A stretch of DNA of 32,826 nt from Candidatus Erabacter solicola (GCA_003136895.1 PLDY01000089.1:1-32826); one strand, 5' to 3'. Positions 4,689 through 26,269 are shown, numbered from the stretch's first letter. Numbers and translations are program-made. The notes: generated by a model not told the origin, from the sequence alone.

Positions 4689-5258
4689 GTGTCTCGATCT
4701 GCATGGGCGTTGCTCGCGCTTGTGTCCGCCGTAGTGGGCGTGGCTTGGTGGTGGCTATCGCGCCGGCCCGAGCCCGAACCACGCGTCGAACCGCGCGCCG
4801 AACCTAGACCCGAACCACGCGCGGAACCCAGACCCGAACCGCCTCTTCGGCGTGCGCAAGGTCGCGACGCGATCAAGGCGACGATCGACCGGGCAAATGC
4901 CGAATGTCTCTCCGCCCTCGAGCGCGGCGACGCGCACGCGTACGCGCAACACTTCGCCGAGGACGGGATCTCGTTGCCAGGTCACGGACCGATGGTTGTA
5001 GGCCGGCCGGCGATTGAAGAAGCGATGTCCGACGCCTTCAGCCGCATTCGGTTCGAGCAAGCTGAGAGTCGCACGCTCGATACGCGCTACCAGGGAGAGA
5101 CCGCGTACGAAACCGGCGCGTACAAGTTTGTCGTAAAACCGCTCGGGAAAGGCCGCAAGCAGGCGCAGACCGGCCGCTACTTCGTCGTTTGGAAACTCGT
5201 CGGCGGCCAATGGAAGATCGCCGTCGACGCCGCTCAGCCGGGTGCGCCGGCCGAGTAG
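4689..5258 (+). CDS. Membrane-anchored NTF2-like (SnoaL/DUF4440-type) protein with Pro-Glu-Arg linker
   Basis: 189 aa from GTG 4689, with GAAGG about 8 nt upstream. Residues about 5-24 ([19 protein letters not shown]) form one membrane helix. Residues about 26-55 are a low-complexity run of PEPR/AEPR units, probably a stiff spacer. The rest matches the NTF2/DUF4440 fold: an N-terminal helix ([20 protein letters not shown]), then [28 protein letters not shown], and a terminal strand pair ([14 protein letters not shown]). Such domains bind small ligands or act as weak enzymes; the ligand is unknown. A TAGAAT -10-like box lies at about 4592-4597. The 3' end overlaps the convergent cyclase gene by 25 bp, so no terminator separates them. 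Confidence 0.75.
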
Positions 5259-6292
5259 AACGCGAAGCCGTTCTTGCCGGCCGCCTTTACCGAGTACAGC
5301 GCTAAGTCTGCGGCGTGAATTACGCCATCGGCTTGATCGGCGTCGAATGGATACAAAGCGACGCCGATGGAGCAGCGCAACCCGTCGCGACGCAACGCAG
5401 CCGAAAGTCGCCGAACGCACTGCCGCGCGAGACTCGCGTCCGTATCAATAAGCAACACTGCGAATTCGTCGCCGGCGATGCGCGCCACCACATCTATCTC
5501 GCGACATGACGTTCGAAGCGTCGCCGAGAGCTTGCGTAGCGTGCGATCCCCAAGCGAGTGGCCTCCGGCGTCGTTAACCTTCTTCAGATCATCGAGGTCT
5601 ATTATTACGATCGCGAGCGGTTTCGAGTCGCGGCTGCTCGACTCGATCTCGCGCTGCACACGCTCGTCGAAGGCGCGTCGGTTCAAGAGGCCGGTGAGGA
5701 AGTCTCGGCTTGCGAGCTCCTGAGCTTGGCAGAAGAGAAGACCGTTCTGCAATGCCACCGTCGCTACGTCTGCCAGCAATTCGACGAGTTGCGCCTCCCA
5801 AACGCGTGGCGCAGGTGCCGCATGACCATCGGCGTACAGATATCCGAACGCGTCGTGTTCATTTGCTAGTTCTATAAAAACATACCAACCGCGAACATCG
5901 ACGACCGGCGCGCATAGATCTCCGGCGAGTCCTAGGAGCGCTTCGGGCGGCTCTCCCGACGGACGGCGCCGAGAGACTGCGTAGGCGCCTTCACCCTGCG
6001 AACTGGTTGGCTCGAGCGTATCGAGCCGGTCGATTTGCCAGCGCGCGACGAGAGAATGTTCGGAGCACGCGAAGTACACCGCTCGTTCAAACCCCAGCGG
6101 ATCGAGAGCCGCGTGCAGCAGTTTCGCCACGATATCGTCGGGTTGGCGCGCAAGCATCACTCGAGTGAATGCTCTGGTGAGGTCGCTTAGAACGTGTGCA
6201 CGAGACTGAGCCTCGTTGTACTTTCGTTCCAGATCCAAAATGCGCTGCAGCGCGTTCGCGAGCTCCACCGTAGGCTGGGAACGATCGATCAC
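5234..6292 (-). CDS. GGDEF-domain diguanylate cyclase, last gene of the pilus operon
   Basis: 352 aa. A coiled coil (about residues 10-35) leads into a GAF-like sensory region (about 40-190). The GGDEF domain starts at SRDFLTGLLNRRAF. The catalytic loop reads R-I-AGDEF; AGDEF variants are often active. The inhibitory I-site R-x-x-D (REID) lies five residues upstream, as it should. IVIIDLDDLKKVND holds the metal-binding Asp, and CSIGVALYP is the usual C-terminal signature. It is therefore predicted to make c-di-GMP from two GTP with product inhibition. It starts with GTG overlapping the pilT-like gene stop (GTGA). C-di-GMP controls pilus extension in other bacteria, so a role in this pilus is likely but inferred. 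Confidence 0.9.
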   Translation of the reverse strand: MIDRSQPTVELANALQRILDLERKYNEAQSRAHVLSDLTRAFTRVMLARQPDDIVAKLLHAALDPLGFERAVYFACSEHSLVARWQIDRLDTLEPTSSQGEGAYAVSRRRPSGEPPEALLGLAGDLCAPVVDVRGWYVFIELANEHDAFGYLYADGHAAPAPRVWEAQLVELLADVATVALQNGLLFCQAQELASRDFLTGLLNRRAFDERVQREIESSSRDSKPLAIVIIDLDDLKKVNDAGGHSLGDRTLRKLSATLRTSCREIDVVARIAGDEFAVLLIDTDASLARQCVRRLSAALRRDGLRCSIGVALYPFDADQADGVIHAADLALYSVKAAGKNGFAFYSAGAPG

Positions 6293-7383
6293 GCGCGGCG
6301 CTTTGCCTGAAGCGTAAGTTCGCGCAGCTCCTCAGGATACAACGTTTCCGCGCTAGCGATGTTAGCATCTATCTCCCCAGCTGCGACGAGTTCAGCCAGA
6401 TGCGCTTCGAGCGTTTGTGCCCCGTCTTTGCGGGAGCTCGCTAGGGTCGAATGTAGTTGATGCGAGGCCCCATCTCGGATCAAGCGCCGGACGGCGTCGG
6501 TCGCGAGCAATATCTCTGCCGCCGGTTGAAATCCGCCAGCCCGGGACGGGAGAAGACGCAGCGCGAGAATTGCGCGTAACGTCTCAGCGAGACGTGCGCG
6601 GATTCGCTCCTGCTCCTCAGTAGGGAATAATCCGACGATGCGGTTCACAGCATGGGTCGATTCCGATGGGGTGTGCAGAGCGGCGAGAACGAGATGTCCG
6701 GCTTCGGCCGCCCGCAAGGCTGCCGCGGTCGTATCGATGCCTTGCAAGTCTGCGATGAAAAGCAGGTCCGGGTCGGCTCGAAGCGCGCCCTGCACGCCAG
6801 CAGCGAATGTCGCCACATCGCGCCCGACCTCATATTGAGTCACGACGGACTTGTCCCAGCGGTGGCGATGTTCCACCGGAGCCTCGAGGGTGACGATGTG
6901 GCGCCGATCCGATTCGTTGACTCGCTGAATGAGTGCGGCCGCAGTTGTCGACTTTCCGCAGCCGGGTGGCCCCACGATGAGAACCAATCCCGATCGAAAT
7001 CGGATGAAACTCTCGACGACAGCCGGAAGTCGAAGTGAGTCCAGGTCGGACACCGACTTTGCCAGCAATCGGATCGCGAGACGAGAGCCATGGGAACCGC
7101 GGGATGCATGAATGCGGATCGCACCGACATCGCTATCCGCGTATGCGGCATCGGCGATTCCAATCTTTTCGAAGCGGGCGCGAGACAGACGATCGAGTGC
7201 CAGTTCCAAGAAGGCCTCGACGTCGCTCCCATCGATGCTTGCCGCTGCGATTCGCTCCATCGCGGTAAAGATTCGAAAGGCGACACCCTCGGCTGGATCG
7301 ATGTGTACGTCCGAAGCGCATCGCGCGCGCGCCTGCGCGATACAATGGAGAATGCGTGCGCCCCCGCGCAAGGGATCGCTCAC
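6289..7383 (-). CDS. Divergent PilT/PilU-like pilus ATPase
   Basis: 364 aa, starting with GTG in a GTGA overlap. It has the PilT layout: an N-terminal PAS-like half and a RecA-like ATPase. The Walker A at residues 138-145 (GPPGCGKS) is intact, and the His box AGHLVLAALHT is present. Other motifs depart from PilT. The Asp box reads TLEAPVEH instead of TVEDPIEY. The Walker B reads DPDLLFIADLQG where PilT has DPD-x-x-x-VGE-x-RD, so the catalytic Glu is Asp and the following Arg-Asp is lost. The C-terminal ASRKDGAQTLE block matches PilT. A canonical pilT is present at 15575-16657, so this is a second, specialised copy. It may be a PilU-like accessory motor with weak or no ATPase activity. Confidence 0.87.
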   Translation of the reverse strand: MSDPLRGGARILHCIAQARARCASDVHIDPAEGVAFRIFTAMERIAAASIDGSDVEAFLELALDRLSRARFEKIGIADAAYADSDVGAIRIHASRGSHGSRLAIRLLAKSVSDLDSLRLPAVVESFIRFRSGLVLIVGPPGCGKSTTAAALIQRVNESDRRHIVTLEAPVEHRHRWDKSVVTQYEVGRDVATFAAGVQGALRADPDLLFIADLQGIDTTAAALRAAEAGHLVLAALHTPSESTHAVNRIVGLFPTEEQERIRARLAETLRAILALRLLPSRAGGFQPAAEILLATDAVRRLIRDGASHQLHSTLASSRKDGAQTLEAHLAELVAAGEIDANIASAETLYPEELRELTLQAKRRA

Positions 7384-8192
7384 TCTAGGGCGCCGGCGAG
7401 CAAAGCCAAAATGGTCGTAAGGCGGCCTGCATCCATGTGCGGCGACAAGGACTCAACGAGGTCGCGCCGGCGGCGGCTAGCTGCGTACGCTAGGGCCGCC
7501 TTCGCTGCTAGCGCCTCGACGCGGTCATCGAATGCCACGATAAGGTCATGCCGACATGCGGACTGCACGAGCCCATCGATCGCAAGAGTGCGCTCCGCGT
7601 CGTTTTCGGCGCGTAAAGCTTGCCGAAAAACGTCCGGACCCTCCGGATAGTTGTCGGCGATGAATGCCCTGAGTACGGCTAGCCGCTGAGCCCCGTTTTC
7701 TTCCTTATAGGCGCGGGCCAGCAGAGGGCCGTACTCGATCTTCGAACTTGCCCGCAGCTCCTCGAGAAGACCCAAACGCTCCGCAGCCGAGCGTGCGCGC
7801 GAATTGCCATCGTACAAGGCGGGCCAGGTTATCGACTCCCGACGGCGCAGACGCTTTCGAGTCAGCGGAATGACGCGCTCGGCGTCCAGGTCAACGTGCG
7901 CGATGCCGAAGGAACTACCCCCTGCTGCGCTGATTGGCGAGAGAGACTGGCCTACATCGGGAACGTTTGAACTATCTGTGTTTTGAGGGATTCCGGGCTG
8001 CGCCGACGCGGCGGGCGCCACATACGCGTCGATGAAAGGTGTTTCAGATTCTGCGGGATTGTCCGTGCTGCCCTCACTCGGAATGAGGATGCTCACATAC
8101 TCAGCAAAGTGTTGATCGTTTGCGGCAGGGGCCTCCGGAGAGCCCAGAACTGCGCTCGCCGCTTTGAAGAGTTCCTCGAACCAGTCGCGCAT
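7380..8192 (-). CDS. Unrecognised pilus-operon protein with alpha-helical repeat C-terminus
   Basis: 270 aa; I recognise no family. There is no signal peptide or membrane helix, so it should be cytoplasmic. Residues 1-20 form an amphipathic helix (MRDWFEELFKAASAVLG). About 25-130 is low-complexity Ser/Pro/Ala-rich and probably disordered. About 135-270 is entirely helical, with repeated pairs such as AAERLGLLEELRASS, AQRLAVLRAFIADNYPEG and AERTLAIDGLVQSA, resembling HEAT repeats. It overlaps the downstream pilT-like gene by GTGA and starts 12 bp after the preceding unknown gene stops, so it is made with the pilus machine. It could be an adaptor for the divergent ATPase; that is inference. Confidence 0.72.
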   Translation of the reverse strand: MRDWFEELFKAASAVLGSPEAPAANDQHFAEYVSILIPSEGSTDNPAESETPFIDAYVAPAASAQPGIPQNTDSSNVPDVGQSLSPISAAGGSSFGIAHVDLDAERVIPLTRKRLRRRESITWPALYDGNSRARSAAERLGLLEELRASSKIEYGPLLARAYKEENGAQRLAVLRAFIADNYPEGPDVFRQALRAENDAERTLAIDGLVQSACRHDLIVAFDDRVEALAAKAALAYAASRRRRDLVESLSPHMDAGRLTTILALLAGALE

Positions 8193-8204
8193 CGGGACTG
8201 AATC

Positions 8205-9224
8205 CTACGCGACCGTGCGATCGTCGAACGCATCTTGCAACGCGCCGGCGAGGTTCCACAGGCGATCGTCGAGGACGTGGTTGGGAATTGTCATCTGCTT
8301 GAGACGAACGGATGTCGATGTCCTCGCTGTCTGTCCGAATAGTTCGAGGAGCGCGGAGCGATATTCACGCAGGCGTTGCGAGAGCACCTCATGCGTCGAA
8401 CGCTGAGGTATCAGGAGTGGGATAAACGCGTCCGCGCCTTCGTTCCGAGCTGCTTGGTACTCGGCGAAGCGAATGGTGCCGACGAGCATATCCGGGGAAT
8501 CGGGCTCGCCGAGCGTGCCCAGCTCCACAGTAATATGCGGCGCGACCGATTCGCGCACGCCAGCTAGAGCTTTCGCCAGCGTGGGCGTCTCGATCGACTC
8601 GAGCCACGAGGAATCGATAGCAAACTGCGGGACGAGTGCGGCCAAGAGTGGGCCACCCAGTGCTTCCGTGGCCGCACTACGAAGCGACGCGAGTTGCCTC
8701 CCGGCCTCCATGCCGATATCGGGGTCCGGTAGCACCAGTTCATCGGGGAGCAACATGCGCATTGCCAGCGAATGACGGTACCAACCGAGCCGGTCGACGG
8801 TAAAGAGCTTGTCGATGACTGCGACAAACCTGCGCGCAGCTTCGCCTGACCAGCGTGACCGTACAACGACCCCCCGAAGCTCTGTGGCCGCCAGGCCGCG
8901 AGGCGGGACCGGAATGGCGAAAGTTTCGCGAGTAGGAGGCGGATGGATTCGGACGAGTGCTGGATTCACGAACGAGAGGGTCAATATGTCGTCGGATTTG
9001 TATGCGCCCGCCGGCGAGACTATGGCTACGGAGATCGATTCCGGAACGAGGCCGGCAATTCGAAGCTCTGCTTGATGCGCGTCGCTTGGAGCGCCATGGC
9101 TGCAAGCCCGCCCGATGGTCGGGTCGGAAAAAGCGAGAGATAGGATCTGGCCCTCAGAGTATGGCCCGCCGGGGGTTAAGACGCGGATCAATACCAGATA
9201 GGGCACGTCGGGAACGCCACTCAT
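8205..9224 (-). CDS. Unrecognised pilus-operon protein with an internally duplicated N-terminal motif
   Basis: 339 aa; I recognise no family. There is no signal peptide or transmembrane segment. Residues 10-35 and 63-88 align without gaps. Shared positions include P-x-G-x-Y, I-L-x-L, F and a closing P, so an ancestral 26-residue beta-rich unit was duplicated. A proline-rich linker (HPPPTRETFAIPVPPRG) follows at about 95-112. The remaining 220 residues are mostly helical and end in DDRLWNLAGALQDAFDD. The gene lies 3 bp after the secretin gene stop and is co-translated with its neighbours. Because it sits between secretin and the second PilT, a structural or regulatory pilus role is likely; its function is unknown. 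Confidence 0.72.
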   Translation of the reverse strand: MSGVPDVPYLVLIRVLTPGGPYSEGQILSLAFSDPTIGRACSHGAPSDAHQAELRIAGLVPESISVAIVSPAGAYKSDDILTLSFVNPALVRIHPPPTRETFAIPVPPRGLAATELRGVVVRSRWSGEAARRFVAVIDKLFTVDRLGWYRHSLAMRMLLPDELVLPDPDIGMEAGRQLASLRSAATEALGGPLLAALVPQFAIDSSWLESIETPTLAKALAGVRESVAPHITVELGTLGEPDSPDMLVGTIRFAEYQAARNEGADAFIPLLIPQRSTHEVLSQRLREYRSALLELFGQTARTSTSVRLKQMTIPNHVLDDRLWNLAGALQDAFDDRTVA

Positions 9225-9227
9225 GGT

Positions 9228-10613
9228 TCAGTTTCGAGCCGCGGTCGCGACGTCGACATCGGCGACAAGATGCGGCGTGATCAGGAAAACGATCTCGTCC
9301 TTTGCATTTGACCGCTGACGATTCTTGAAGACCTCGCCGACGAACGGAAGGTCGCCGAGAAATGGCACCTTACTCACGCTGCTTGCGTCAACGTCTTGAA
9401 AGAGCCCCGCAATAACGATGGTTTCGCCGTCTCTCACGCGCAATGTCGATTGTGCTTTGCGCGTCCCGATGACGGGAAAGTTGTTCACGAAGTTCACGAT
9501 CGTGCTGTAGTCGGTTTCCAGTGCGGTCGTTATCGCGCCGTCGGCGCCGATCGTCGGTGAGACACTCAGATTGACGCCGACGTTTGCAAACTGAACCTGT
9601 TGAGTGCCGGTCCTCGCGTCGAAATAAACCAGTGGAAATTGTTGTCCGACGAGTAGCGACGCCTGCACGTTATTCAGCGTGCTCAGACTAGGCTGCGCGA
9701 GGATCGAGGCGCGACCTTTAGTGACGAGAGCGTTGAGCGTCGCGTTTATGGCTACCGAACTATTGACGAATGCGGTACTAGCTTGACCGGGACTTGGCTG
9801 CCCGTTGATCGCCAAGCCACCGAAGAGTAAGCCGATGTTGCTCGTGTCGCTGGGAGAAATATCTGTGACACGCACTTCGTAGCGCACCTGCCGGCCGGGC
9901 CGGTCGATATTTTTCAGCAGGTCGTTGGCTTGGGCAATAAAGTCACTCGACCCGGCAACGATGATCGCATTTTGCTGATCGGCTGCGTATGCGCTGGACG
10001 GTGCGACTATGGCGAGCGTAGCCTGAAGAGCACGAAGTGCATCGCTAGCCTTAACATACCGCATTGGGAGCGCCGCACTTTGAAAATCCGCGGTTCGGTC
10101 GAGGGCTTGGATCAGATGCTCTGCGCGCGCGAGGACTGCGGGTGTTCCGGTGATCAGAATCGTTGAAGTGCGGCGGTCGCCGGCGATGATCGTTCCGCGC
10201 GGCAACGCGTCGGATAGCTCTTTCGCGAGCGTTTCGGCAGCCGCGTTTCTTAGCGCAAAGGCTCGCGTATGGCTCCCAATCGGCGAAACTTCAGGGTAGC
10301 GCCGGTTAATCGCGTCTGGTGTGCCGAGATATATGACGTTGCCGACCCGGACCGCTTCCAAATCGTTCATCTGCGCCAGAGTTGCCAGCGCTTCGTCGAA
10401 GCCAACTCGTCTGAGGCGGAGTGTTATCGGCCGGTGCTCGACCGACGCATCGATCACGAGATTGACCGAGCCCTGCGTGCTCAGCAGGCGGACGGCGTCG
10501 TAGATATCGAGGTCTCGAATATCGAGCGAAAGCTGTGTTGCGGCTCGAGCCTCTAGGCATGGTCTCAGCATGAGGAAGAGCATAAGTGCGATTGTTACTA
10601 GCGAGCGCGGCAT
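9228..10613 (-). CDS. pilQ: Type IV pilus secretin (PilQ/GspD family), short form
   Basis: 461 aa from ATG 10613, which has GGGAG 8 nt upstream. An in-frame TTG at 10631 is the alternative. It has a signal peptide (residues 1-24) and an STN/N0 domain (SLDIRDLDIYDAVRLLSTQG). Two KH-like N1 repeats follow (about 110-170 and 180-235; the second ends AQANDLLKNIDRP). The secretin core contains ALVTKGRASILAQPSLSTLN and VSPTIGADGAITTALE, and closes with VPFLGDLPFVGEVFKNRQRS and EIVFLITPHLV. These form the outer-membrane gate that the fibre passes through, which implies a two-membrane envelope. It is shorter than proteobacterial PilQ (about 700 aa) because peptidoglycan-binding AMIN domains are absent. 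No pilotin is seen nearby. Confidence 0.93.
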   Translation of the reverse strand: MPRSLVTIALMLFLMLRPCLEARAATQLSLDIRDLDIYDAVRLLSTQGSVNLVIDASVEHRPITLRLRRVGFDEALATLAQMNDLEAVRVGNVIYLGTPDAINRRYPEVSPIGSHTRAFALRNAAAETLAKELSDALPRGTIIAGDRRTSTILITGTPAVLARAEHLIQALDRTADFQSAALPMRYVKASDALRALQATLAIVAPSSAYAADQQNAIIVAGSSDFIAQANDLLKNIDRPGRQVRYEVRVTDISPSDTSNIGLLFGGLAINGQPSPGQASTAFVNSSVAINATLNALVTKGRASILAQPSLSTLNNVQASLLVGQQFPLVYFDARTGTQQVQFANVGVNLSVSPTIGADGAITTALETDYSTIVNFVNNFPVIGTRKAQSTLRVRDGETIVIAGLFQDVDASSVSKVPFLGDLPFVGEVFKNRQRSNAKDEIVFLITPHLVADVDVATAARN

Positions 10614-10627
10614 AGTGTAACTCCCAT

Positions 10628-11317
10628 TCAACGCGGCGGATAGGGATATGGATATGGGAACGCGGTTGGAGCGGCGGGATCCGAGGTCGGGCCAGCGCCG
10701 AATGGATACGCCCCGGGCTTGACCGTTGGCAGGGGCCCGACGGTCGCGATGTTCATTGGCGTCGCGAGAACCGAATCGGTCCTCGCCTCGGGAGAGCTGC
10801 TAGCCTTGGGCATCGAGCGGGCGCGTCGCGGTGCGCCGCGCGGGACGAGAGAGATGCTAGGAATTCGGGTCGAACCGAGAGTGAGGCGGGAGGCGTCCGA
10901 AAGCGTAAGACCCAGGGCGTCGATTGCGACGATTCGCCGTTCACCCAATGTATCGCCGATGCGAACAATCCGTACGACCGAGCCGGCGGTGATGTATGCG
11001 ACGGGCGTAGCGCCGACTATCGTCGCTTTCAAGGCGTAGTCGCTGTGCGGGGCCGCCGTTTCGCGAGGCGCTTCCGAATCGTCGTTTGGATCTGGAACGG
11101 TGAGCTCCGACAGGGTTGACGAGACATCGGGTCCCGGCGCGCCGGCGAAAGGATCGCGTCGAATTGCTTGCCCGATCGAAACGAATTGACCAGTCTCCGC
11201 CGGCGAAACGAAGACCGATCGATGCGGGGTTTGTGCCAGTGGCACGGCGCGAGCGAGGAAACACCCGCCGACTCCGGCAAGCAGAAGCGCGAGAAAAAAG
11301 CGCTGGCGTTTGATCAC
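10628..11317 (-). CDS. pilP: PilP/GspC-like inner-membrane to secretin connector
   Basis: 229 aa, GTG start in a GTGA overlap with pilO. Residues about 7-25 (FFLALLLAGVGGCFLARAV) form a membrane anchor; a Cys lies in it, but no clear lipobox. The IRRDPFAG motif at about 53-60 is the conserved PilP/GspC lead-in. A short beta domain follows (YALKATIVGATPVAYI, VVRIVRIGDTLGERRIVAID), matching the HR domain that contacts secretin N0. The C-terminal 70 residues are Pro/Ala-rich and end in repeated P-Y, a tail not usual for PilP. The family links the PilMNO complex to the secretin. Position and motif support the call although similarity is low. Confidence 0.8.
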   Translation of the reverse strand: MIKRQRFFLALLLAGVGGCFLARAVPLAQTPHRSVFVSPAETGQFVSIGQAIRRDPFAGAPGPDVSSTLSELTVPDPNDDSEAPRETAAPHSDYALKATIVGATPVAYITAGSVVRIVRIGDTLGERRIVAIDALGLTLSDASRLTLGSTRIPSISLVPRGAPRRARSMPKASSSPEARTDSVLATPMNIATVGPLPTVKPGAYPFGAGPTSDPAAPTAFPYPYPYPPR

Positions 11318-11838
11318 GAGCGGCTCCGGTGTGGACGTAACAACGTTATCGGAATCGCCGCATCGATCGAAGGCCCGTTAGTGCGCAGACTCGCGCCGTC
11401 AACTCGAATGAGGTCGGCGTTCCGTGTCACATCGTCGATCGTCATTAGCAACCCTCGATAACTCCCGCGCAGCTCAACGGCTAGCCGAAGTTCGTCGAAG
11501 TCGGCCTGCCCTGGATATGGTTGCCTGGAATCGAGGGGGGCGGACGCCGCCACACTGCCGGAGACGAATTCGACGCCGAATCGCTTGGAAGCAGTCGCCA
11601 ATATTCTGAGCAACTGTGATTCCGTAGCGCCGTCGGCGCTCGCTCCGTAACGCGGTAACAGCCGCTGCCTCTCGGCGATGAGGCGCGGTCGTGCGGCGAA
11701 GACAAGGGCATCTGAACGCAACCTGGAGCGCGCTTCGTCCAGCCGCGCCCGTGCTGCGTCCACGCCGGGCTCCAGGCGCCAGTACGCGAGCAGCGCAAAC
11801 ATTGCTGCGGCAGCGGCGATCAAAATTACGCGATTCAT
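11314..11838 (-). CDS. pilO: PilO-like alignment-complex protein
   Basis: 174 aa, starting ATG in an ATGA overlap with pilN. One N-terminal membrane helix (residues 3-20) is followed by a coiled coil (AARARLDEARSRLRSDALVF). The C-terminal ferredoxin-like domain has ATESQLLRILATASKRFGVE and then LAVELRGSYRGLLMTIDDV, the layout of PilO/GspM. In the family it pairs with PilN in the inner membrane and transmits PilM state to the PilP-secretin complex. Sequence signatures in PilO are weak, so the call relies on topology and the pilMNOPQ order. Confidence 0.82.
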   Translation of the reverse strand: MNRVILIAAAAAMFALLAYWRLEPGVDAARARLDEARSRLRSDALVFAARPRLIAERQRLLPRYGASADGATESQLLRILATASKRFGVEFVSGSVAASAPLDSRQPYPGQADFDELRLAVELRGSYRGLLMTIDDVTRNADLIRVDGASLRTNGPSIDAAIPITLLRPHRSRS

Positions 11839-12392
11839 CGAGCACCGGCCGCAGCGGTGCTCAACCGGATCGTGAAGTGCACCGTCTTCCGCTGTGCGTC
11901 CCGGACGACGTTTACGAGGGAGATATGGGCGAGCCGCTGCGTTCGCGATAGCGAGTCAAAGGTATCTCCGACAGCGACGATCGTCCGGGCGGTTCCGGAG
12001 ATTACGTATCCGTCAGGCTCTCGAACGATTCCATCAAGCCATGCCGAGGGCGGAATAGAATTGCCAATGACGGCGAACCCTGAGGCGGCGTCGTTCCCAC
12101 TATGCCGCGCAATTCGGCCCGCGCGTTCGATATGTCGTAAGACGGTGACCTGCATCTCCAACTCGGACAGGGAGCGACGCGGAACCTCATTTGCGGCAAG
12201 TAGGGATTCGACAAACACCGCTTCGTCAACAAGCCGGTGAACGCGAAAAAACTGGATCGCGACCGTGCACGTTACAAACGTTACGATCGTGACCACGACG
12301 CTCAAAGTCCGGCGCAAGACTTCGAGATCCATCCCGACCCCAAATACGGTCACTGTCGTGCTTTGGCGAGGAAGCAAATTTGCTCGAATCAT
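11835..12392 (-). CDS. pilN: PilN-like alignment-complex protein
   Basis: 185 aa. I place the start at ATG 12392, in an ATGA overlap with pilM, rather than 60 bp upstream, because the protein then begins MIRANLLPRQ. That is the conserved PilN N-terminal peptide which inserts into PilM. A membrane helix follows at about residues 30-50 (VVVTIVTFVTCTVAIQFF), then a coiled coil, then the periplasmic fold (IPPSAWLDGIVREPDGYVIS, SLVNVVRDAQRKTVHFTIRL). With PilM and PilO it forms the inner-membrane alignment complex. Confidence 0.87.
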   Translation of the reverse strand: MIRANLLPRQSTTVTVFGVGMDLEVLRRTLSVVVTIVTFVTCTVAIQFFRVHRLVDEAVFVESLLAANEVPRRSLSELEMQVTVLRHIERAGRIARHSGNDAASGFAVIGNSIPPSAWLDGIVREPDGYVISGTARTIVAVGDTFDSLSRTQRLAHISLVNVVRDAQRKTVHFTIRLSTAAAGAR

Positions 12393-13240
12393 GCGACCCG
12401 CAATCCTTGCGGCGCCGTGGACCACATTGCCAGGCCGAGCGCCAAAGCCCATGGTGCTGCCTCCTCACCTCCCAGCCGAACAGGCTCAACTGCGTACCCG
12501 TCGCTGAGAAGCAATGGTTCGATTGCGACACGGCGCGCCGGCGGGCCGGCGATCGCCACGTGCTGAACGTCGGAGACGCCGTCACGCCTCGCCTGAATCA
12601 GGGTCGAGCGTACCTGCGCGACCAATCGTTCATCGACTAGTCGGGGAGCGAGCAATTCGACCAGTCCAATCGGTTTTCCAAAGATGATGAGCGCGGCGCG
12701 CTCGCTCCGGATATCTAGAACGGCATCGATCCGAGGAAGCGCCCGCTGCCAGGCGCACGCGGGCACGTCGACGGCGACGGGTAAGAGCCCCGCGAGCTGG
12801 GCAACGCTGACTCTACGCGCGATCGTGGCATTGCGTGCGATCGAGAGAAGCAGTTCGTTCGGCCGCCCCGGAATCGGATCGAGTGCCACAATTCGTTCGC
12901 CGGAAGGCCAGTTTGCGATGGCGTCCGCCTCTAGAGTGGCAGCTCGCGCGGCCTCGCTGCGCCCCATGCCTGGCGGCGCGCGGAACACGCGCGTCGTGAC
13001 TTCGCCCAACGGCGCAGCGATAATGCAGCGCCGCTCCGTCGTTTTCATTTCGAGCAACAAGGCGCGAAGCGTCTCTCGAATCGTCGCCTCAACGTCTGGG
13101 CCCACACGCGGCACCGCGCGTGCAACGGCTTCAGTTACTTCGAGTCCCTTCGGCGTTATCGCGGTGGCGACGATCGAAATCTCGTCGGGTCCTAGATCTA
13201 CTCCAAGCGGCAGACGAGCGGTCTTGCGAAAAAATAACAC
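12389..13240 (-). CDS. pilM: PilM-like actin-fold ATPase
   Basis: 283 aa from GTG 13240, with GGAG 7 nt upstream inside the end of pilD. The first phosphate-binding loop reads LGVDLGPDEISIVA at about residues 11-24. The second region has PVAVDVPACAWQRA and DAVLDIRSERAALIIFG, and the adenosine-binding block resembles VQHVAIAGPPARRVAIEPLL. This is the FtsA/PilM actin-like fold. At 283 aa it is shorter than typical PilM (about 350 aa). It is cytoplasmic and expected to bind the PilN tail, linking the PilB/PilT motors and PilC to the envelope complex. Confidence 0.87.
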   Translation of the reverse strand: MLFFRKTARLPLGVDLGPDEISIVATAITPKGLEVTEAVARAVPRVGPDVEATIRETLRALLLEMKTTERRCIIAAPLGEVTTRVFRAPPGMGRSEAARAATLEADAIANWPSGERIVALDPIPGRPNELLLSIARNATIARRVSVAQLAGLLPVAVDVPACAWQRALPRIDAVLDIRSERAALIIFGKPIGLVELLAPRLVDERLVAQVRSTLIQARRDGVSDVQHVAIAGPPARRVAIEPLLLSDGYAVEPVRLGGEEAAPWALALGLAMWSTAPQGLRVA

Positions 13241-13242
13241 GT

Positions 13243-13842
13243 TCAGTCTCCAATAAGGGCGCGCAAGGGTCTGGCAGCAATCAGCGCAGTCAACGCGCCA
13301 ACCGCCAGATGCGGAACGAACGGCATGCGCGGCAGACAGGCGCGTCCGAGCGGCGTCTGTGCGAACGCCAACCCGCTAACGCAGGCCACGAACAGAGCGA
13401 GGCACGATTCGAATGGGCCGAATGCGAGTGACAACGAAAACGCGGCTTTGACGTCCCCCCAGCCAAGCCAAGACGATGCGGCGAGGAGAGCTAGGGGCGC
13501 CACGATCGCCAACGCGCCGATCGACGGTCGACCGTCTCCGGTCGCGCCCATTGCGAAAACGATGGCGACGACGGCGGCCGGAAGTGTCACTGAATCGAAG
13601 ACGTAGCCGGTCCGAGCGTCTGCGATCGCGCCGACGGTGAGCGCGACGAGAACCGCGCCGCGCGCCAGCGCTTCTCGCGGCTCGCGCACCGCGCAGGCAG
13701 TCGCTCCGAGCGGGGCCGCAAGCGCGAAAGAGATGCAGAGGGAGCTGGCTCCCGTCAACGATCTCTCAGCTCGCGCCGCGAGAGCCGAGAGCAGTGCAGC
13801 CCAGCCGATCAGGGACGCGCTGCAAATAAACGCGCTCGTCAC
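13243..13842 (-). CDS. pilD: Prepilin peptidase, A24 aspartic protease, lacking the methylase domain
   Basis: 199 aa, GTG start in a GTGA overlap with the pilin gene; it stops 2 bp before pilM. It has about six hydrophobic helices. The first catalytic Asp is in VGAIADARTGYVFD. The second is in SSWLGWGDVKAAFSLSLAFG, the G-x-G-D motif of type IV prepilin peptidases. The terminal PFVPHLAVGALTALI helix is also typical. It cleaves prepilin leaders after Gly at the membrane's cytoplasmic face. The N-terminal zinc/N-methyltransferase domain of bifunctional PilD is missing, so methylation of the new pilin N-terminus needs another enzyme or does not occur. Confidence 0.9.
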   Translation of the reverse strand: MTSAFICSASLIGWAALLSALAARAERSLTGASSLCISFALAAPLGATACAVREPREALARGAVLVALTVGAIADARTGYVFDSVTLPAAVVAIVFAMGATGDGRPSIGALAIVAPLALLAASSWLGWGDVKAAFSLSLAFGPFESCLALFVACVSGLAFAQTPLGRACLPRMPFVPHLAVGALTALIAARPLRALIGD

Positions 13843-14345
13843 GTATTCGTACCGTAGATTCCGTAGCGGGGATCGTAGTGGAGACGCGTGCAGTTGTCGG
13901 TATCGCCGCAGACTCGCTGAACGTCGGTCGCGGCTGGGCCGAGCGAGACGTTGATGATACTGGCGGAATCGTAGGCCTGGGGATCCTCGATGTCGTAAGA
14001 TGGTGGCGCAGAAGTTCCCCCGGAGTACGTATATACGTAATCTTGGCGAGCGTTCGATGGCGTTGAGTTAAGATATGAATTGTTTGCTCCCCCGAAGAGC
14101 GCGGCGCTAACGCTGACGTGACTGCCCGCCGGGTAATCTTGGTGATCGGCAAAATACAGTTCGAGAGCGGTGCCTATCTGTTTCATAGTCGCTTGGGTAC
14201 TTGACACGGTTGCTTGGCGGCGGGCGTGAACGTAGTTGGGGATAATTAGCCCGGCAATCAGCGCGATTATGGCGACGACCACCATCAGTTCCACGAGAGT
14301 AAAGCCTCGTTCGAGTTCTCGCGATGAAGCGGATGCCGATATCAT
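13839..14345 (-). CDS. pilA: Type IV pilin (class III signal peptide), probable major pilin
   Basis: 168 aa. A 14-residue leader (MISASASSRELERG) precedes the cleavage point G/FTLVEL, followed by a hydrophobic spine (MVVVAIIALIAGLIIPNY). Glu5 of the mature protein, needed for subunit docking, is present. Next comes the amphipathic helix (TVSSTQATMKQIGTALELYF) and a Ser/Thr/Gly/Asn-rich head with two Cys residues (VCGDTDNC), which could form a small disulphide loop. Its GspG-like features (ALELYFADHQDYP) are shared with pseudopilins. It is the only prepilin in the window, so minor pilins must be elsewhere or absent. The start codon has the strongest ribosome binding site in the operon. Confidence 0.93.
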   Translation of the reverse strand: MISASASSRELERGFTLVELMVVVAIIALIAGLIIPNYVHARRQATVSSTQATMKQIGTALELYFADHQDYPAGSHVSVSAALFGGANNSYLNSTPSNARQDYVYTYSGGTSAPPSYDIEDPQAYDSASIINVSLGPAATDVQRVCGDTDNCTRLHYDPRYGIYGTNT

Positions 14346-14351
14346 GAGTTC

Positions 14352-14357
14352 TCCTTA
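14352..14357 (-). promoter_or_regulatory. Strong ribosome binding site of the pilin gene
   Basis: AAGGAG on the minus strand, at good spacing from ATG 14345 and overlapping the pilC stop region. The other operon genes mostly rely on overlap coupling, so this site probably raises pilin output. Confidence 0.75.
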
Positions 14358-15575
14358 GTGAATGGAGCTGGAGAGTGTGGTCAACGGAACGTAGACAACG
14401 TACACGATAGCAGCGACCAGAACGCCCAGTGCGAGGGTGACACTGGTCTGAATGAGCGTTGGCAGGGTTGCTAGGATCGAGGCAACATCGTCTTCGTAGT
14501 AGTCCGCGATGCGGCTAAGCATATGGGGAATATCGCCGGTCTGTGCGCCGATGCGCACGAAGCCGACGAGCAGCGGCTCGAAGACGCCGGCCGCTTCAAA
14601 CGCCTCGTCGAGCGAGGAACTCTTGCCGGCGGCGATGCCACTGCGAGCCCGCTCGAGTGCGGAGCTAAGGATCGGGCTCTCGACGACAGGTATCGCAACT
14701 TCGAGTGCCCGCAACTGATTTACGCCTGATTCCAAAAGGGTAGCGAGGACGCGGCTTAGCCGCGCTGCTCCGACCTTACGAATCAGGCGGCCAAAAAGCG
14801 GTGCGCCAAGACGAGCGCGATCGAGTGCCCGCGCGCCCTCCGGCGTGGCGGCCGCGCGCGCGAGCACGAAGCCCCCAAAGAGTAGCGCGCCGGCCGCGGC
14901 ACCGATCGCAACAGGGTTGCTCACAATTGCGCTGAGCCACAGCAAACTCGAGAGCACCGGCGACATACCGACATCGAACGCCTTGAAAAGGCGTGCGAAC
15001 TGCGGGACGACGGCGATCAGAAGGTATGCGGTGACGGCCAGCGCGCCGCCCACGACGAACGCCGGGTAGAGTAGCACGGCGCCAAGCCGCTTCCGCAGCC
15101 GTTCGTCGCGCTCTAGGAAGCCGGCCAGCCGGTCGAATACATCCTCTCGATTGCCCGCTTCCTCGCCGGCTGCGACCATTGCGACCTCGAGATCGCTAAA
15201 GTCTCTTGGGCGGTGCGACATCGCGACCCACAGTTTCTCGCCCGCGTCTTCGACGTCCGCACGAATCGCGCGTAGGGCTTCGCCGAACCTGGCCGTTCGC
15301 GCCTGAGCTATAAGCAACTCAAACGCCGTTGAAAAATCAACTCCCGCGTGTTCGAGAGCGGCGTACGCGCGAAAGAAAGCCAAGCGCTCCGAAGAATGTC
15401 GGCGCGGCAAGAAGCGTCCAAACGAGCTGCCTCCGGCAACCGAGTCGAGCCGAAACGGCACCAGCATCCGCTCGCGCAGTGCGGCCAGAGCCGACGGCCG
15501 GTCAAGCGCCCACATGGTGCCTGCGACGCGCTCCCCGCTCGGCGTGCGAGCCCGATATGCAAAGGTAAGCGACAT
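14355..15575 (-). CDS. pilC: Pilus platform protein PilC / GspF family
   Basis: 406 aa. I place the start at ATG 15575 (MSLTFAYRARTPSG), which overlaps the pilT stop as TAATG. A longer frame upstream only shadows pilT. After the N-terminal segment (TFAYRARTPSGERVAGTMWA) come two GspF domains. The first has AFFRAYAALEHAGVDFSTAF and VAAGEEAGNREDVFDRLAGF; the second has SRVLATLLESGVNQLRALE and FVRIGAQTGDIPHMLSRIAD. Membrane helices lie after each domain (AVTAYLLIAVVPQFARLFKA, and the terminal SVTLALGVLVAAIVYVVYVP). It is the inner-membrane platform on which PilB and PilT act. Confidence 0.94.
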   Translation of the reverse strand: MSLTFAYRARTPSGERVAGTMWALDRPSALAALRERMLVPFRLDSVAGGSSFGRFLPRRHSSERLAFFRAYAALEHAGVDFSTAFELLIAQARTARFGEALRAIRADVEDAGEKLWVAMSHRPRDFSDLEVAMVAAGEEAGNREDVFDRLAGFLERDERLRKRLGAVLLYPAFVVGGALAVTAYLLIAVVPQFARLFKAFDVGMSPVLSSLLWLSAIVSNPVAIGAAAGALLFGGFVLARAAATPEGARALDRARLGAPLFGRLIRKVGAARLSRVLATLLESGVNQLRALEVAIPVVESPILSSALERARSGIAAGKSSSLDEAFEAAGVFEPLLVGFVRIGAQTGDIPHMLSRIADYYEDDVASILATLPTLIQTSVTLALGVLVAAIVYVVYVPLTTLSSSIH

Positions 15576-16657
15576 TAGTGTAGCCCTTCTGCGATGCGGA
15601 TTTGATCGGGATAGTCCGATGCCGCGACGGCAGCCTCGTACGTGATCAGTCGCTCGCTCACTAGGCGAGATAGATCCATTTCGAGCGTTTGCATCCCGTC
15701 TTTGCGCGAGGCCTCGATGGTGTTGCGAATCTGTATCGCACGTTCCGGCGCCAAGAGTTGCGATCGTACCGCCGGAGAGTTCAGTAGAACCTCGCACGCG
15801 GCGCGCCGGCCGTATCCACTCGCATCGGGAATCAAGCGCATCGAAACTATCGCCTGAAGGGATTGCGCGAGTTGCATGCGGACCTGCTCCTGGCGGCCGC
15901 CTTCAAAGACACCGACGATCCGCTGTACGGTCTCGGCGGCTTCTGACGTATGAAGCGTGCTGAAAACGAGATGACCGGTCTCGCTTGCTTGCAGGCAGGC
16001 GGACATGACGTCCGCATCGCGTAGCTCGCCAACTAGGATGACGTCCGGATCGGCGCGCAGAACGCCGCGCAGCGATTCGGAATAGGAGGTGACATCGCGA
16101 CCGATCTCTCTCTGACGAACGAGGGAGCGTTGACTGCGATGCCGGTACTCTATCGGATCCTCGACGGTGACGATATGTCGCGAGTACCGCAGATTGATCT
16201 CGTTGATTAGGCCGGCTAGAGCGGTCGATTTTCCCGAACCGGTCGGCCCGGTGAAGAGAACAAGACCGTTCGGAAAGTCAGCAAAGCCGGCGACGATGTC
16301 CGGCAAGCCGAGTGCGGAAAGCACCGGAACACCTTCGCGCAGCAGACGCAGCGAGAGTGCGATTCCATTGTCCGCGCGGAATGCGTGGATTCGAATCCCA
16401 CCAAAAGTTGGATGCTGGATCGCCCCATCGGCTGCGCCGTGCGAGCCATTGAGTCGCTCGTATTCCCGTTTTCCCAAGTACGCCTCGCAGAACGCGCGAA
16501 CGGACTCCGGTTCGATTGCCCCGAGCTCCATCGGCCGCATTTGGCCGTCAACGCGATGCCATGGAGGCTCGTTTCCTTCGATGTGAAGATCCGATGTGCT
16601 GGCCGAGAGAGTTCCCTCGCGCACGATGCGCACCGCTCGTTCAATCTCAGCTAACAT
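15575..16657 (-). CDS. pilT: Pilus retraction ATPase PilT (canonical)
   Basis: 360 aa. All PilT motifs are intact: Walker A GPTGSGKS (137-144), Asp box TVEDPIEY (about 164-171), Walker B ADPDVILVGELRD (202-214) and His box TGHLVFSTLHT. The C-terminal ASRKDGMQTLEMDL block, the usual PilT tail motif, is present. N-terminal SDLHIEGNEPPWHRVDGQM is the usual CASDLH-like start, with Thr-Ser for Ala-Ser. PilT hexamers drive pilin disassembly and so retraction, which argues for a true type IV pilus rather than type II secretion. It lies 14 bp after pilB. Confidence 0.95.
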   Translation of the reverse strand: MLAEIERAVRIVREGTLSASTSDLHIEGNEPPWHRVDGQMRPMELGAIEPESVRAFCEAYLGKREYERLNGSHGAADGAIQHPTFGGIRIHAFRADNGIALSLRLLREGVPVLSALGLPDIVAGFADFPNGLVLFTGPTGSGKSTALAGLINEINLRYSRHIVTVEDPIEYRHRSQRSLVRQREIGRDVTSYSESLRGVLRADPDVILVGELRDADVMSACLQASETGHLVFSTLHTSEAAETVQRIVGVFEGGRQEQVRMQLAQSLQAIVSMRLIPDASGYGRRAACEVLLNSPAVRSQLLAPERAIQIRNTIEASRKDGMQTLEMDLSRLVSERLITYEAAVAASDYPDQIRIAEGLH

Positions 16658-16671
16658 CGCAGCGGGCGTTC

Positions 16672-18111
16672 CTATTCTGCATCTTCAAACGAAAGGTGAC
16701 GAAGCAATTCGCCTTCTGAGGTGATGCCTGCGGCGACGTGTCGTAACGCGTCGACGATCATTGGTCGATAGCCCATCACGAACGCGATCTTTCCGAGATC
16801 CGCGGGAGCGTCGCCGCGTTCGATCGCGGCGGCCAATTCGGGCCTGATCTCGAGAACCTCAAATGCGCCAACGCGGCCTTGGAACCCGGAGTAGTCGCAT
16901 ACGTCGCAGCCCTGCGCCTCCCAGGCCTCGGCTCCAAGCGCTAACCCGTAACGCCGACCAACTGCAAGAGCCTGCGAGGAGATCGAAGACCTGATCTTGC
17001 AGCGTCGGCAGAGCATCCGTAATAGCCGTTGCGAGACGGCGATCGTCAAGGACGATGCGAGCGTGGAGCGATTGGCCCCCAGCTCGGCGAGACGTGTCGG
17101 CACCCGCAACGCATCGCGCGCGTGCAAGGTGGTGATCAGCGAGATTCCGGTCAGGCTCGCCTGCAGCGCAATCGATACCGTATCGCCATCACGCATTTCA
17201 CCGATGAAAAGCTGGTGCGGGTTCTGCCGCAAGAGCGCCCGCAAGGCTACCGGGAACGTGATTCCGGCGCGTTCGTTGACCGCAATTTGGGCAATTCCCG
17301 GGACTTGACATTCGATGGGGTCCTCGACGCTGCAGACATTGACGTGGCTCAGGTCGATCGTTTGGAGCGAGGCATACGATGTCGTCGACTTACCAGAGCC
17401 GGTTGGGCCGGCGATCACGCAAAACGCCCCGGGCCGTTTCAGAGCGCGCTGATAGCGAGCCATCAGTTCGCTGCCCATTCCGAGTTGTTCGAGATCGGGG
17501 ACCAAGTCGAAGCGCTGAAGGAAGCGCAAGACGACCTTTTCGAGTCCGCCGACCGGAATTGTCGATGTGCGAACGTCAAACGAACGGCCGTCGAAGGTGA
17601 CGGCGAGGCGCCCGTCCTGCGGAAGCCGCGATTCGCCGGTATTCATATTTGACCGGACCTTGAGAAGGGCGACGACGCGTTCGAAGAGACCGGATTCGAG
17701 TTGACGGTCGTGCTGCAATACACCGTCCACGTCGAGACGGACTCGGCCGGCGCGGGCATCGGTCGGTTCGAGATGTACGTCGCACGCGTAACTGCCGATC
17801 GCTGCCGAGAATATCTCGTCGAGAGCCTGCGCCGCTTGCGAATCGGCATCGCGCGTTGCTGCCGGGGGATAGGCCTGTTTGAGACACTCGCGAATTTCAC
17901 GCACCGGTAACAGGATTGTCCGTACCGTCTTGCGTGTTTGTTGCCGCAACTCTTCCAGCAACTCCGGTCCGGCTGCGCTAACGCCCACCGTCAGAGTCGT
18001 TCCGTCGTAAGAGATCGGCAAGACGTCGGCCTCATAGGCGAACGATCGGGAGAGCAGGGCCGCAGCCGTGCGCTGCGTCGGCGAAGCGTGAAAGCCCGAG
18101 GCATCGGTCAT
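16672..18111 (-). CDS. pilB: Pilus extension ATPase PilB / GspE family
   Basis: 479 aa. A short MshEN-like N-domain covers residues about 10-80. The core follows with CDVHLEPTDARAGRVRLDVD. Walker A is AGPTGSGKST (234-243), Asp box VEDPIECQVPGIAQIAVNE, and Walker B NPHQLFIGEMRD (297-308), where the usual DPD is NPH but the catalytic Glu is kept. His-box analogue: GISLITTLHARDA. Two Cys pairs (C368/C371 and C402/C405, as CRRC and CDVC) make the tetra-Cys zinc site of assembly ATPases. It powers pilus polymerisation from the cytoplasm. It starts in an ATGA overlap with the transglycosylase gene. It is shorter than typical PilB (about 560 aa), mainly at the N-terminus. Confidence 0.94.
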   Translation of the reverse strand: MTDASGFHASPTQRTAAALLSRSFAYEADVLPISYDGTTLTVGVSAAGPELLEELRQQTRKTVRTILLPVREIRECLKQAYPPAATRDADSQAAQALDEIFSAAIGSYACDVHLEPTDARAGRVRLDVDGVLQHDRQLESGLFERVVALLKVRSNMNTGESRLPQDGRLAVTFDGRSFDVRTSTIPVGGLEKVVLRFLQRFDLVPDLEQLGMGSELMARYQRALKRPGAFCVIAGPTGSGKSTTSYASLQTIDLSHVNVCSVEDPIECQVPGIAQIAVNERAGITFPVALRALLRQNPHQLFIGEMRDGDTVSIALQASLTGISLITTLHARDALRVPTRLAELGANRSTLASSLTIAVSQRLLRMLCRRCKIRSSISSQALAVGRRYGLALGAEAWEAQGCDVCDYSGFQGRVGAFEVLEIRPELAAAIERGDAPADLGKIAFVMGYRPMIVDALRHVAAGITSEGELLRHLSFEDAE

Positions 18112-18563
18112 CGCGTGGCACGCCGTAGAACGTCCTTGGCATAGACGAGGCCGTTTTCAAAGCCTCCGGAATGATAGGCACTTAGTGCGTGGAGCAGCGC
18201 GGATCGGCCGCGGCCGTAGCGCAGAATCGAGGCGGCGTAGTTTCGCGAGAGGATGCTCGCCCCGACGCTCAAGTTGATGCACGGGTCGAAAGCATCGTGC
18301 AAACTCAGCCTGTAGCTGCCGAAATTTGTGATATTGATCTGGGTATAGCCGACATCGATGTTGTGGCCGGCGTCGATAAGACGCCGAGCCAGCGCTTCCG
18401 CTGCGACGCGCGACGCCGGAAAGAAAGCATGCCGCGCGGTGTTATCGCCAATCGCGTTAGGCTGCCAGCCACTCTCGGAAGCGATGAGGGCGCTCATGGT
18501 CTTGGGGCCGATACTCGGCGCGCACAATGGCAGAAGATGCACGAAGGCTAGCGGAAGGAACAT
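18108..18563 (-). CDS. VirB1-type lytic transglycosylase
   Basis: 151 aa. A short hydrophobic N-terminus (MFLPLAFVHLLPLCAP) leads directly into the SLT fold. The catalytic Glu is in ALIASESGWQPNAIGDN. NIDVGYTQINITNF matches the G-x-x-Q-I-N motif, and AYHSGGFENGLVYAKDVL the terminal A-Y-N-x-G block. VirB1-like enzymes cut peptidoglycan glycan strands locally so that an envelope machine can be built. It sits between the sigma factor (5-bp gap) and pilB (ATGA overlap). It may compensate for a secretin without wall-binding AMIN domains (inference). The export signal is short and may be poor. Confidence 0.87.
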   Translation of the reverse strand: MFLPLAFVHLLPLCAPSIGPKTMSALIASESGWQPNAIGDNTARHAFFPASRVAAEALARRLIDAGHNIDVGYTQINITNFGSYRLSLHDAFDPCINLSVGASILSRNYAASILRYGRGRSALLHALSAYHSGGFENGLVYAKDVLRRATR

Positions 18564-18568
18564 TTCGC

Positions 18569-19336
18569 TTAGAGCTCTGCGGGGGCAGCGTGCTGCCGCA
18601 GCCGCTGGAGAGCGCCGCGTTGTGCTCGGGCGACGGTCTTGGCCGGCAGACCGAGGCGTCGCCCCAGCTCGGCGCGGCTCAACTCCAGCCAGTAGAGCCC
18701 AATGACGATGCTACGCTCGAGGGCGGAGAGTTTCTCCAGTGCCGAGCCGAGCCAGATGCGATCGACGAGGTCGGGTGATCCGTCTGCGTCGGCGTTCAGC
18801 GGCGCGAGGCTCGCCCGCGGACGGAGATCCCAGTCGATGCGGAGCGGCTGAGCGCATGCGCGGAGACGACGCAACTCGTCGACGGACGCCCGCGGCGCCC
18901 CGAGCTCGCGGGCGATCTCCGCATCCTGTGGCTCACGGGCGAGCTCCAAGCTGAGGCGTTCCCATGCCGCGGCGTAGCGGCGCTCGAGAGCCCGCAACTG
19001 GCGCGGTAAGCGAATCGCGTGCTCGTGGTCGCGAACGTAGTGACCGAGTTCGCCCAAGATCATTAACCACGCGAAGGCCTCGAATGGGGTCGGCCCTTGC
19101 CGGTTGTAGCGGTCGCAGGCCTTGATCAGTCCGATCGCCGCAACTTGCTCGAGATCGGCGCGCTCGAGACCCGGCCGCAGAAACTTGCGGGCGCCGCGGC
19201 GGCAGAGATAGCAGTGCTGAGCGATGAGTTGCTCGCGCTCGGCGCATCGAATTGGAAAGACGGGCGCCGCAGGAGGGACGAGAGGCGTTTCGCGCAGTAA
19301 GCCGAGATGGAGCACGTCGCCGATTATGGGAAGCAA
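18569..19336 (-). CDS. Sigma-70 family factor (group 3, SigB/SigF-like), first gene of the pilus operon
   Basis: 255 aa from TTG 19336; GTG 19315 is an alternative, and neither has a clear ribosome binding site. Region 2 is DLEQVAAIGLIKACDRYNRQ, then a FEAFAWLMILGELGHYVRDH block and AIRLPRQL, close to SigB/SigF. Region 3 is LSLELAREPQDAEIARELGA. Region 4 ends KLSALERSIVIGLYWLELSR and RAELGRRLGLPAKTVARAQR, a helix-turn-helix for the -35 element. CYLC near the N-terminus is unusual. No anti-sigma factor is adjacent. As the first gene of the pilus operon it probably directs transcription of pilus genes; that is inferred from position. Confidence 0.86.
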   Translation of the reverse strand: MLPIIGDVLHLGLLRETPLVPPAAPVFPIRCAEREQLIAQHCYLCRRGARKFLRPGLERADLEQVAAIGLIKACDRYNRQGPTPFEAFAWLMILGELGHYVRDHEHAIRLPRQLRALERRYAAAWERLSLELAREPQDAEIARELGAPRASVDELRRLRACAQPLRIDWDLRPRASLAPLNADADGSPDLVDRIWLGSALEKLSALERSIVIGLYWLELSRAELGRRLGLPAKTVARAQRGALQRLRQHAAPAEL

Positions 19337-19351
19337 TTGTTACGCAATTGC
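19333..19351. promoter_or_regulatory. Candidate operator between sigma/pilus operon and response regulator
   Basis: GCAATTG at 19333-19339 and CAATTGC at 19345-19351 form a perfect 7-5-7 inverted repeat. The same heptamer also recurs as a direct repeat at 19333 and 19344, an 11-bp period. OmpR/PhoB-family regulators typically bind direct repeats 11 bp apart, and such a regulator starts 70-90 bp away. It overlaps the TTG start proposed for the sigma gene. No experimental support. Confidence 0.5.
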
Positions 19352-21625: not shown

Positions 21626-21678
21626 GAAACGGGTGTATGACGCGAGGCGTCGACCTTCCGGCGTGGAAGCCACCCCGC

Positions 21679-23958: not shown

Positions 23959-23959
23959 G

Positions 23960-25993: not shown

Positions 25994-26072
25994 CTGAAGA
26001 ATCTCCATGACGGGAAAGGTTCGAGAGCAGGGCATCGAACACCTGTTCGATAGGGCGGCAGTCGGGCCTCGG

Positions 26073-26088
26073 TACGTGATATAGTACA
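26073..26088 (-). promoter_or_regulatory. NrdR box 1 (proximal) of the nrdJ promoter
   Basis: On the minus strand TGTACTATATCACGTA, with the CTATAT core of the NrdR consensus (acaCwAtATaTwGTgt). It lies 80 bp upstream of nrdJ and exactly 32 bp from the second box. NrdR represses ribonucleotide reductase genes when dATP is high. Confidence 0.75.
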
Positions 26089-26104
26089 CCCGGCACTGGC
26101 CGGA

Positions 26105-26120
26105 TACAAGATATAGTGGT
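26105..26120 (-). promoter_or_regulatory. NrdR box 2 (distal) of the nrdJ promoter
   Basis: On the minus strand ACCACTATATCTTGTA, a close match to the NrdR consensus. The 32-bp offset from box 1 is about three helical turns, the usual tandem spacing. A weaker third half-match (ATCTTGTGT, plus strand, within 26170-26185) lies about 65 bp further, roughly six turns. The rest of 25994-26269 holds a GCACAG-C-CTGTGC palindrome (26141-26153) and no gene. Confidence 0.82.
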
Positions 26121-26269
26121 AAGGACAATTTCCACCTTGAGCACAGCCTGTGCACGGCTTGTTGGAAACCTAACAATCTTGTGTAGGACCGGTGAGCGAG
26201 CAAGCCACCCGGTGGGGCGCTTGGGGAGAAGTTCGAGGATAGCGGGGATGGCCGGGGAACGCTCGGCGA

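Follow-up and report, generated by a model that had tools for sequence, protein, structure and literature searches.

Why would an operon for a type IVa pilus begin with the gene of a sigma factor? This question is raised by a stretch of 32,826 nucleotides (nt) from Candidatus Erabacter solicola (GCA_003136895.1 PLDY01000089.1:1-32826), hereafter called the window, which is contig C48 in an assembly of 2.85 Mb and 176 contigs. The host is an uncultured member of the Eremiobacterota that is represented by a metagenome-assembled genome (MAG). A sequence-only reading had described the locus as a nearly self-contained, transferable pilus module with dedicated transcription. Judged from gene order and a sigma factor tree, the pairing of pilus and sigma factor is old and inherited phylum-wide.

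The pilus operon

The operon of about 14 kb comprises 16 genes, all on the minus strand, from 5234 to 19336 (the bounds of the sequence-only reading; the last start is probably 19315). They encode nearly all parts of a type IVa pilus, together with a lytic transglycosylase (SLT), a GGDEF protein, a group 3 sigma factor and two proteins without a family (Table 1). Most junctions are overlaps of 4 nt or 1 nt, or gaps of 2–14 nt, with 14 nt as the maximum. The open reading frames (ORFs) of PilM and PilN overlap by 64 nt, which is probably a start-site issue. For PilC, the start analysis moved the start from GTG 15797 to ATG 15575. The sigma factor probably starts at GTG 19315 and not at TTG 19336, because the latter falls within a conserved promoter-like element. 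Inside the operon, neither promoters nor terminators were found beyond chance: there is one promoter-like site, on the opposite strand, compared to 3.2 expected, and there are 16 terminator-like sites compared to 13.9 ± 3.2 expected. With these short junctions and chance-level counts, the earlier description of 16 co-directional genes in one compact operon holds, with two starts revised. The gene identities that had been read from motifs agree with the family matches, apart from the PilO-like protein, whose match is weak (0.002, below the cut-off), and the PilP-like protein, which has no family match and is assigned by sequence and position.

Among the components that set a type IVa pilus apart from a type II secretion system (T2SS) or a Tad pilus, PilT (above its family cut-off), PilB, PilC, PilM, PilN, a secretin, a pilin with the N-methylation motif and a peptidase are present. 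A second full pilus locus had been named beforehand as a finding that would count against the operon's self-sufficiency; no second set of type IVa motors was found in the host genome. The remaining secretion-type ATPases are those of a Tad pilus on C155 and of a conjugation-type cluster on C140, both assigned by eye from gene content and sequence. Secretins elsewhere in the genome are the Tad secretin on C155 and a frame of 923 amino acids (aa) on C63 that has no assignment. Two further, minor pilin-like genes are located on C89, where their neighbours are ruv/queA-like and ribosomal genes (recognised by eye). We thus consider the operon nearly, but not fully, self-contained: the description is fair with respect to the single motor set, whereas the two pilin-like genes lie outside.

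Inheritance across the phylum

When scanning the PilB of the window against named genomes, we obtained matches in Candidatus Eremiobacterota MAGs at 73–86% identity, and the same cluster is present in many of them. In this single scan, almost all genomes matched are Eremiobacterota. The order sigma-SLT-PilB-PilT-PilC-PilA-PilD-PilM-N-O-P-PilQ-339-270-PilT2(-GGDEF), where 339 and 270 denote the two family-less proteins, is found again in relatives to the extent that their contigs cover it, and is shared by L040, L041, L042, L046/L054, L047 and L057; some members were not detected, such as SLT in L042 and L045. More distant members of the family, order and class have the arrangement pilB-pilT-pilC-sigma-pilA, followed in many by pilM-Q.

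To survey the sigma factor, we counted its type at E≤1e-60 in 148 genomes of the phylum and found it in 84, among which 64 have a PilC match. In 56 of these 64 genomes the sigma gene is located 11–116 nt downstream of pilC, in five it lies 2.6–3.1 kb upstream, as in the window, and in the remaining three the two genes are on different contigs. Outside the class, the pilC-sigma pair was observed in six genomes at a distance of 96–432 nt; in G041 and G044, which are also outside the class, the pair was detected by profile. In a quick tree, the pilus-linked sigma factors form one group (support of 90 in the Shimodaira–Hasegawa-like approximate likelihood ratio test, SH-aLRT) beside other SigF-like sigma factors of the same genomes.

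The sigma factor after pilus loss

The genus g36 separates the sigma factor from the pilus. Here, the sigma factor is present in 14 genomes and a PilC match in none. Testing these 14 genomes for the PilT family yielded weak matches to Tad-type or other ATPases, or no match, and the PilQ test of three genomes revealed only Tad-type or unassigned secretins. In several g36 genomes the sigma gene directly precedes aroC/aroK/aroB/priA-like genes (recognised by eye), and in G006 and other genomes this neighbourhood borders the pil cluster. In the tree, the g36 sigma factors nest among those linked to pilC; we thus conclude that g36 lost the pilus but retained the sigma factor. Because g36 lost PilT, PilC and PilQ yet retains the sigma factor, its regulon probably extends beyond pili. 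G021 was also considered as a case of pilus loss and was rejected, as a PilQ-like secretin is present.

A pilus-free copy of the sigma gene also exists in the host genome itself (G000:C98:10242-10922, L053). It has the same promoter-like element as the window and a divergent kinase and regulator of its own, and no pilus genes follow it. The tree places this copy with L042 and L045 and not with the sigma factor of the window. A FlgE/F/G-like gene is found at the edge of C98.

The sigma factor and its promoter-like element

The sigma factor contains regions 2, 3 and 4 (Pfam PF04542, PF04539 and PF04545). By its family scores it is filed as group 3, nearest to the SigB/SigF/SigG subfamily: it reaches 124 bits against TIGR02980, which is under the curated cut-off of 234, so that it is not a member, and 67 bits against the FliA/WhiG family (cut-off 190).

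The promoter-like element upstream of the sigma gene is common to eight loci, the window and seven others, and conservation reaches about 20 nt further upstream. The repeats that precede it have periods of 11 and 22 nt. Its −10 part, CATAAT, is sigma70-like. Without mismatch, the element occurs at two sites in the 2.85-Mb genome, each before a copy of this sigma gene (window and C98). The two-component pair is located divergently beside the element in relatives too, and its response regulator is 71–74% identical in relatives, compared to about 50% for the sigma factor. The simplest reading of this arrangement is a housekeeping promoter under an OmpR-type regulator, with autoregulation by the sigma factor as a possibility. 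In L042, L045 and L053, the start codon lies only about 10 nt past the −10 element, which suggests that the sigma mRNA of these loci may be nearly leaderless.

What the sigma factor may control

Our preferred explanation has a probability of roughly 55% as a whole, including the claim that this is the host's single type IVa pilus operon. The operon would be one transcription unit, read as a single transcript from a promoter at about 19320–19345. This promoter would be used by the housekeeping sigma factor and controlled by binding of the divergent OmpR-type regulator, together with its kinase. The first gene product would be an ancient pilus-linked group 3 sigma factor that is made together with the machine and, most likely, turns on further genes elsewhere, which would couple the pilus to a wider programme in a feed-forward manner; the sigma factor might also activate its own promoter, and cyclic di-GMP (c-di-GMP) may add a further effect. 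The ancestral core would be pilB-pilT-pilC-sigma-pilA, whereas SLT, the second PilT, the two family-less proteins and the diguanylate cyclase would be additions by the genus-level clade. More speculatively, the phylum might use its pilus-borne sigma factor in the manner of FliA, to report pilus expression or assembly and to command a wider regulon for life on surfaces that some pilus-less lineages have kept; we regard this extension as rather unlikely.

Several points weigh against the preferred explanation. Some genomes, of the genus g25, have a PilC-like gene but lack this sigma factor. In the pilC-sigma-pilA layout the sigma gene is in the middle of the operon, and thus its position need not imply control. 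Furthermore, the promoter sequences that we compared were chosen by the motif, so that conservation within the motif partly results from selection. Lastly, a sigma70-like −10 may also be recognised by this group 3 sigma factor.

The last point bears on the alternative that fares best, in which the sigma factor is dedicated to activating the operon that encodes it, acting through the element at 19321–19343 as a self-sustaining switch like cyanobacterial SigF. The restriction of the element to copies of this sigma gene agrees with such a switch, as does the proximity to cyanobacterial SigF in NCBIfam (PRK07408, 106 bits), and in Synechocystis SigF regulates itself and also drives pilA1 (PMC2758279). 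However, the element resembles a sigma70 −10 and is a poor fit to the SigF core TAGGC/GGTAA or to the flagellar TAAA/GCCGATAA, and in the pilus-less g36 the sigma gene is preceded by another sequence, likewise sigma70-like. A search for flagellar-type promoters before pilA in relatives gave no convincing candidate, and no such site is conserved there. We therefore see this switch as possible but doubtful. The dedicated transcription of the sequence-only reading loses ground in the same way: there is no sign that the sigma factor reads its own promoter, it survives pilus loss, and a pilus-free copy exists on C98.

These last two observations, the second of which includes a separate kinase and regulator, would also fit a sigma factor that is a mere passenger, inserted long ago into the pil cluster, never a pilus regulator and kept for an unrelated function. 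Under neutral hitchhiking we would not expect its linkage to pilC to be phylum-wide and to survive the move to the head of the operon, which makes a passenger improbable.

A third alternative is a sigma/anti-sigma switch controlled by c-di-GMP, as in WhiG-RsiG of Rubrobacter, and fed by the diguanylate cyclase of the operon. Rubrobacter ties a group 3 sigma factor, c-di-GMP enzymes and a pil cluster together (PMC8325347), and here the operon ends with a GGDEF protein. By its intact motifs, the GG(D/E)EF-type site and the RxxD I-site (REIDVVARIAGDEF), this protein is predicted to be a diguanylate cyclase with both catalytic and inhibitory elements. Among the relatives, two have contigs that extend to this end of the cluster, L054 and L057, and in both its gene comes last. 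However, the sigma factor is nearer to SigB/F/G than to WhiG, and RsiG has been reported from Actinobacteria only. An RsiG-type anti-sigma factor was rejected, as scanning the examined loci for the motif E(X)3S(X)2R(X)3[QH](X)3D yielded a single chance ORF, in L089 (the same ORF as L028). With these points against it, a switch of this kind seems quite improbable. Binding of c-di-GMP by PilB was likewise rejected, as its N-terminus is short and without an RLGxxL motif, and family searches of the operon proteins found no PilZ domain; no receptor for c-di-GMP emerged.

That the operon is a horizontally mobile, self-regulated module is highly unlikely and already contradicted: a transposase/integrase-like gene with an rve core at 720–1871, near the contig end, would fit it, but the guanine-plus-cytosine content of the operon (61.7%) is not foreign to the window (62.2%), the distribution is not patchy, the neighbours (RuBisCO-like, CutA and ribonucleotide reductase genes) are conserved in L042 and L055, and the transferable module is unsupported because the gene order compared among relatives is inherited across the phylum.

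Further features of the window

Among the two family-less proteins, that of 339 aa has no match in Pfam, NCBIfam, PHROG or PDB, and a fold search against PDB returned nothing at E≤0.001. Its gene sits between PilQ and the genes of the 270 protein and the second PilT. Orthologues are 40–48% identical, and the helical domain carries the conserved motif RLGWYRH-AMR-LLPD, in which RLGW-RH is invariant; the structure model has a predicted local distance difference test (pLDDT) score of 78. For the protein at 7380–8192, model confidence is high for the C-terminal half.

Beyond the two-component pair, the window encodes a RuBisCO-large-like protein (PF00016) at 21637–22803, adjoining CutA, and a ribonucleotide reductase at 23098–26203, whose TSCPD domain is on a separate adjacent gene. 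FlhA-type export genes were present in all six Eremiobacterota genomes searched for them (G000 on C104, G008, G066, G073, G016 and G017). These include the probable genome of Vulcanimicrobium alpinus (G008), although this species is reported to lack flagella.

Table 1. Features of the pilus operon and the divergent two-component pair, with positions in the window
Feature	Position	Strand	Evidence and remarks
Promoter-like element	19321..19343	-	GTAACAAT-N7-CATAATCG; directly preceded by 11-bp-phased repeats; probable promoter of the operon (putative function)
Group 3 sigma factor, SigB/F/G-like	18569..19315	-	TIGR02980 124 bits, 7e-36; PDB best matches 8x6g sigma chain, 1l0o sigma
Lytic transglycosylase, SLT family (VirB1-like)	18108..18563	-	PF01464 9e-11; same place in L040, L041, L044, L046
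PilB extension ATPase, short N-terminal domain	16672..18111	-	PF00437 (T2SSE) 3e-93; PF05157 3e-9; Walker A at 235
PilT retraction ATPase	15575..16657	-	TIGR01420 356 bits, above cut-off
PilC inner-membrane platform	14355..15575	-	PF00482 (T2SSF) 2e-41; start ATG 15575
PilA pilin	13839..14345	-	PF07963 (N_methyl) 1e-6; GFTLVE motif
PilD prepilin peptidase, 199 aa	13243..13842	-	PF01478 (A24) 3e-11
PilM	12389..13240	-	PF11104 2e-9
PilN	11835..12452	-	PF05137 2e-5; start uncertain
PilO-like	11314..11838	-	T2SSM_b 0.002, below cut-off; position
PilP-like	10628..11317	-	No family match; position and sequence character only
PilQ secretin	9228..10631	-	PF00263 1e-41; TIGR02515 1e-60
Family-less protein, 339 aa	8205..9224	-	Two tandem beta repeats and a helical domain; conserved in clade
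Family-less protein (270)	7380..8192	-	All-helical C-terminal repeat domain, disordered N-terminus; orthologues in relatives
Second PilT/PilU-family ATPase	6289..7383	-	TIGR01420 292 bits, below cut-off 319; G017 orthologue above cut-off
Diguanylate cyclase	5234..6292	-	PF00990 8e-37; REID I-site, AGDEF active site
OmpR/PhoB-type response regulator, divergent	19426..20112	+	PF00072, PF00486; start deduced from domain position
Histidine kinase partner	20087..21247	+	PF00512, PF02518

Comparison with known systems

That group 3 sigma factors control pili is known already from Rubrobacter WhiG and cyanobacterial SigF. The cyanobacterial sigF gene is not known to lie among the pil genes. We found no paper that describes a sigma factor inside the pil operon of Eremiobacterota, and in the literature that we searched, a sigma factor built into pil operons throughout a phylum appears to be undescribed. 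In Rubrobacter, WhiG-RsiG controls type IV pili, and, as in the window, the pil cluster linked to a group 3 sigma factor includes a gene for a c-di-GMP enzyme (PMC8325347). In contrast, the sigma factor studied here is SigB/F/G-like and encoded inside the operon, and no convincing RsiG motif was found in the loci examined. In Synechocystis, the group 3 sigma factor SigF is needed for pili and phototaxis and controls pilA1 (PMC2758279). The window shares with it the link between a SigF-type group 3 sigma factor and pili, whereas the core promoter TAGGC/GGTAA is not evident in the window element.

The closest comparison comes from the same phylum, where Vulcanimicrobium alpinus WC8-2 is phototactic and has pili seen by microscopy (PMC9758169); in the parts of that report available to us, the sigma factor is not mentioned in connection with the pili. 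The genome G008, which is probably that of V. alpinus WC8-2, has pilB-pilT-pilC-sigma and differs from the window in that pilA and pilM-Q do not follow the pilC-sigma pair. The Eremiobacterota, which include a cultivated, phototactic species, thus offer a clear case, open to testing, in which a whole phylum has inherited a sigma factor along with its pilus operon. Within it, the genus g36 serves as a natural deletion series that separates the pilus role of the sigma factor from its other roles.
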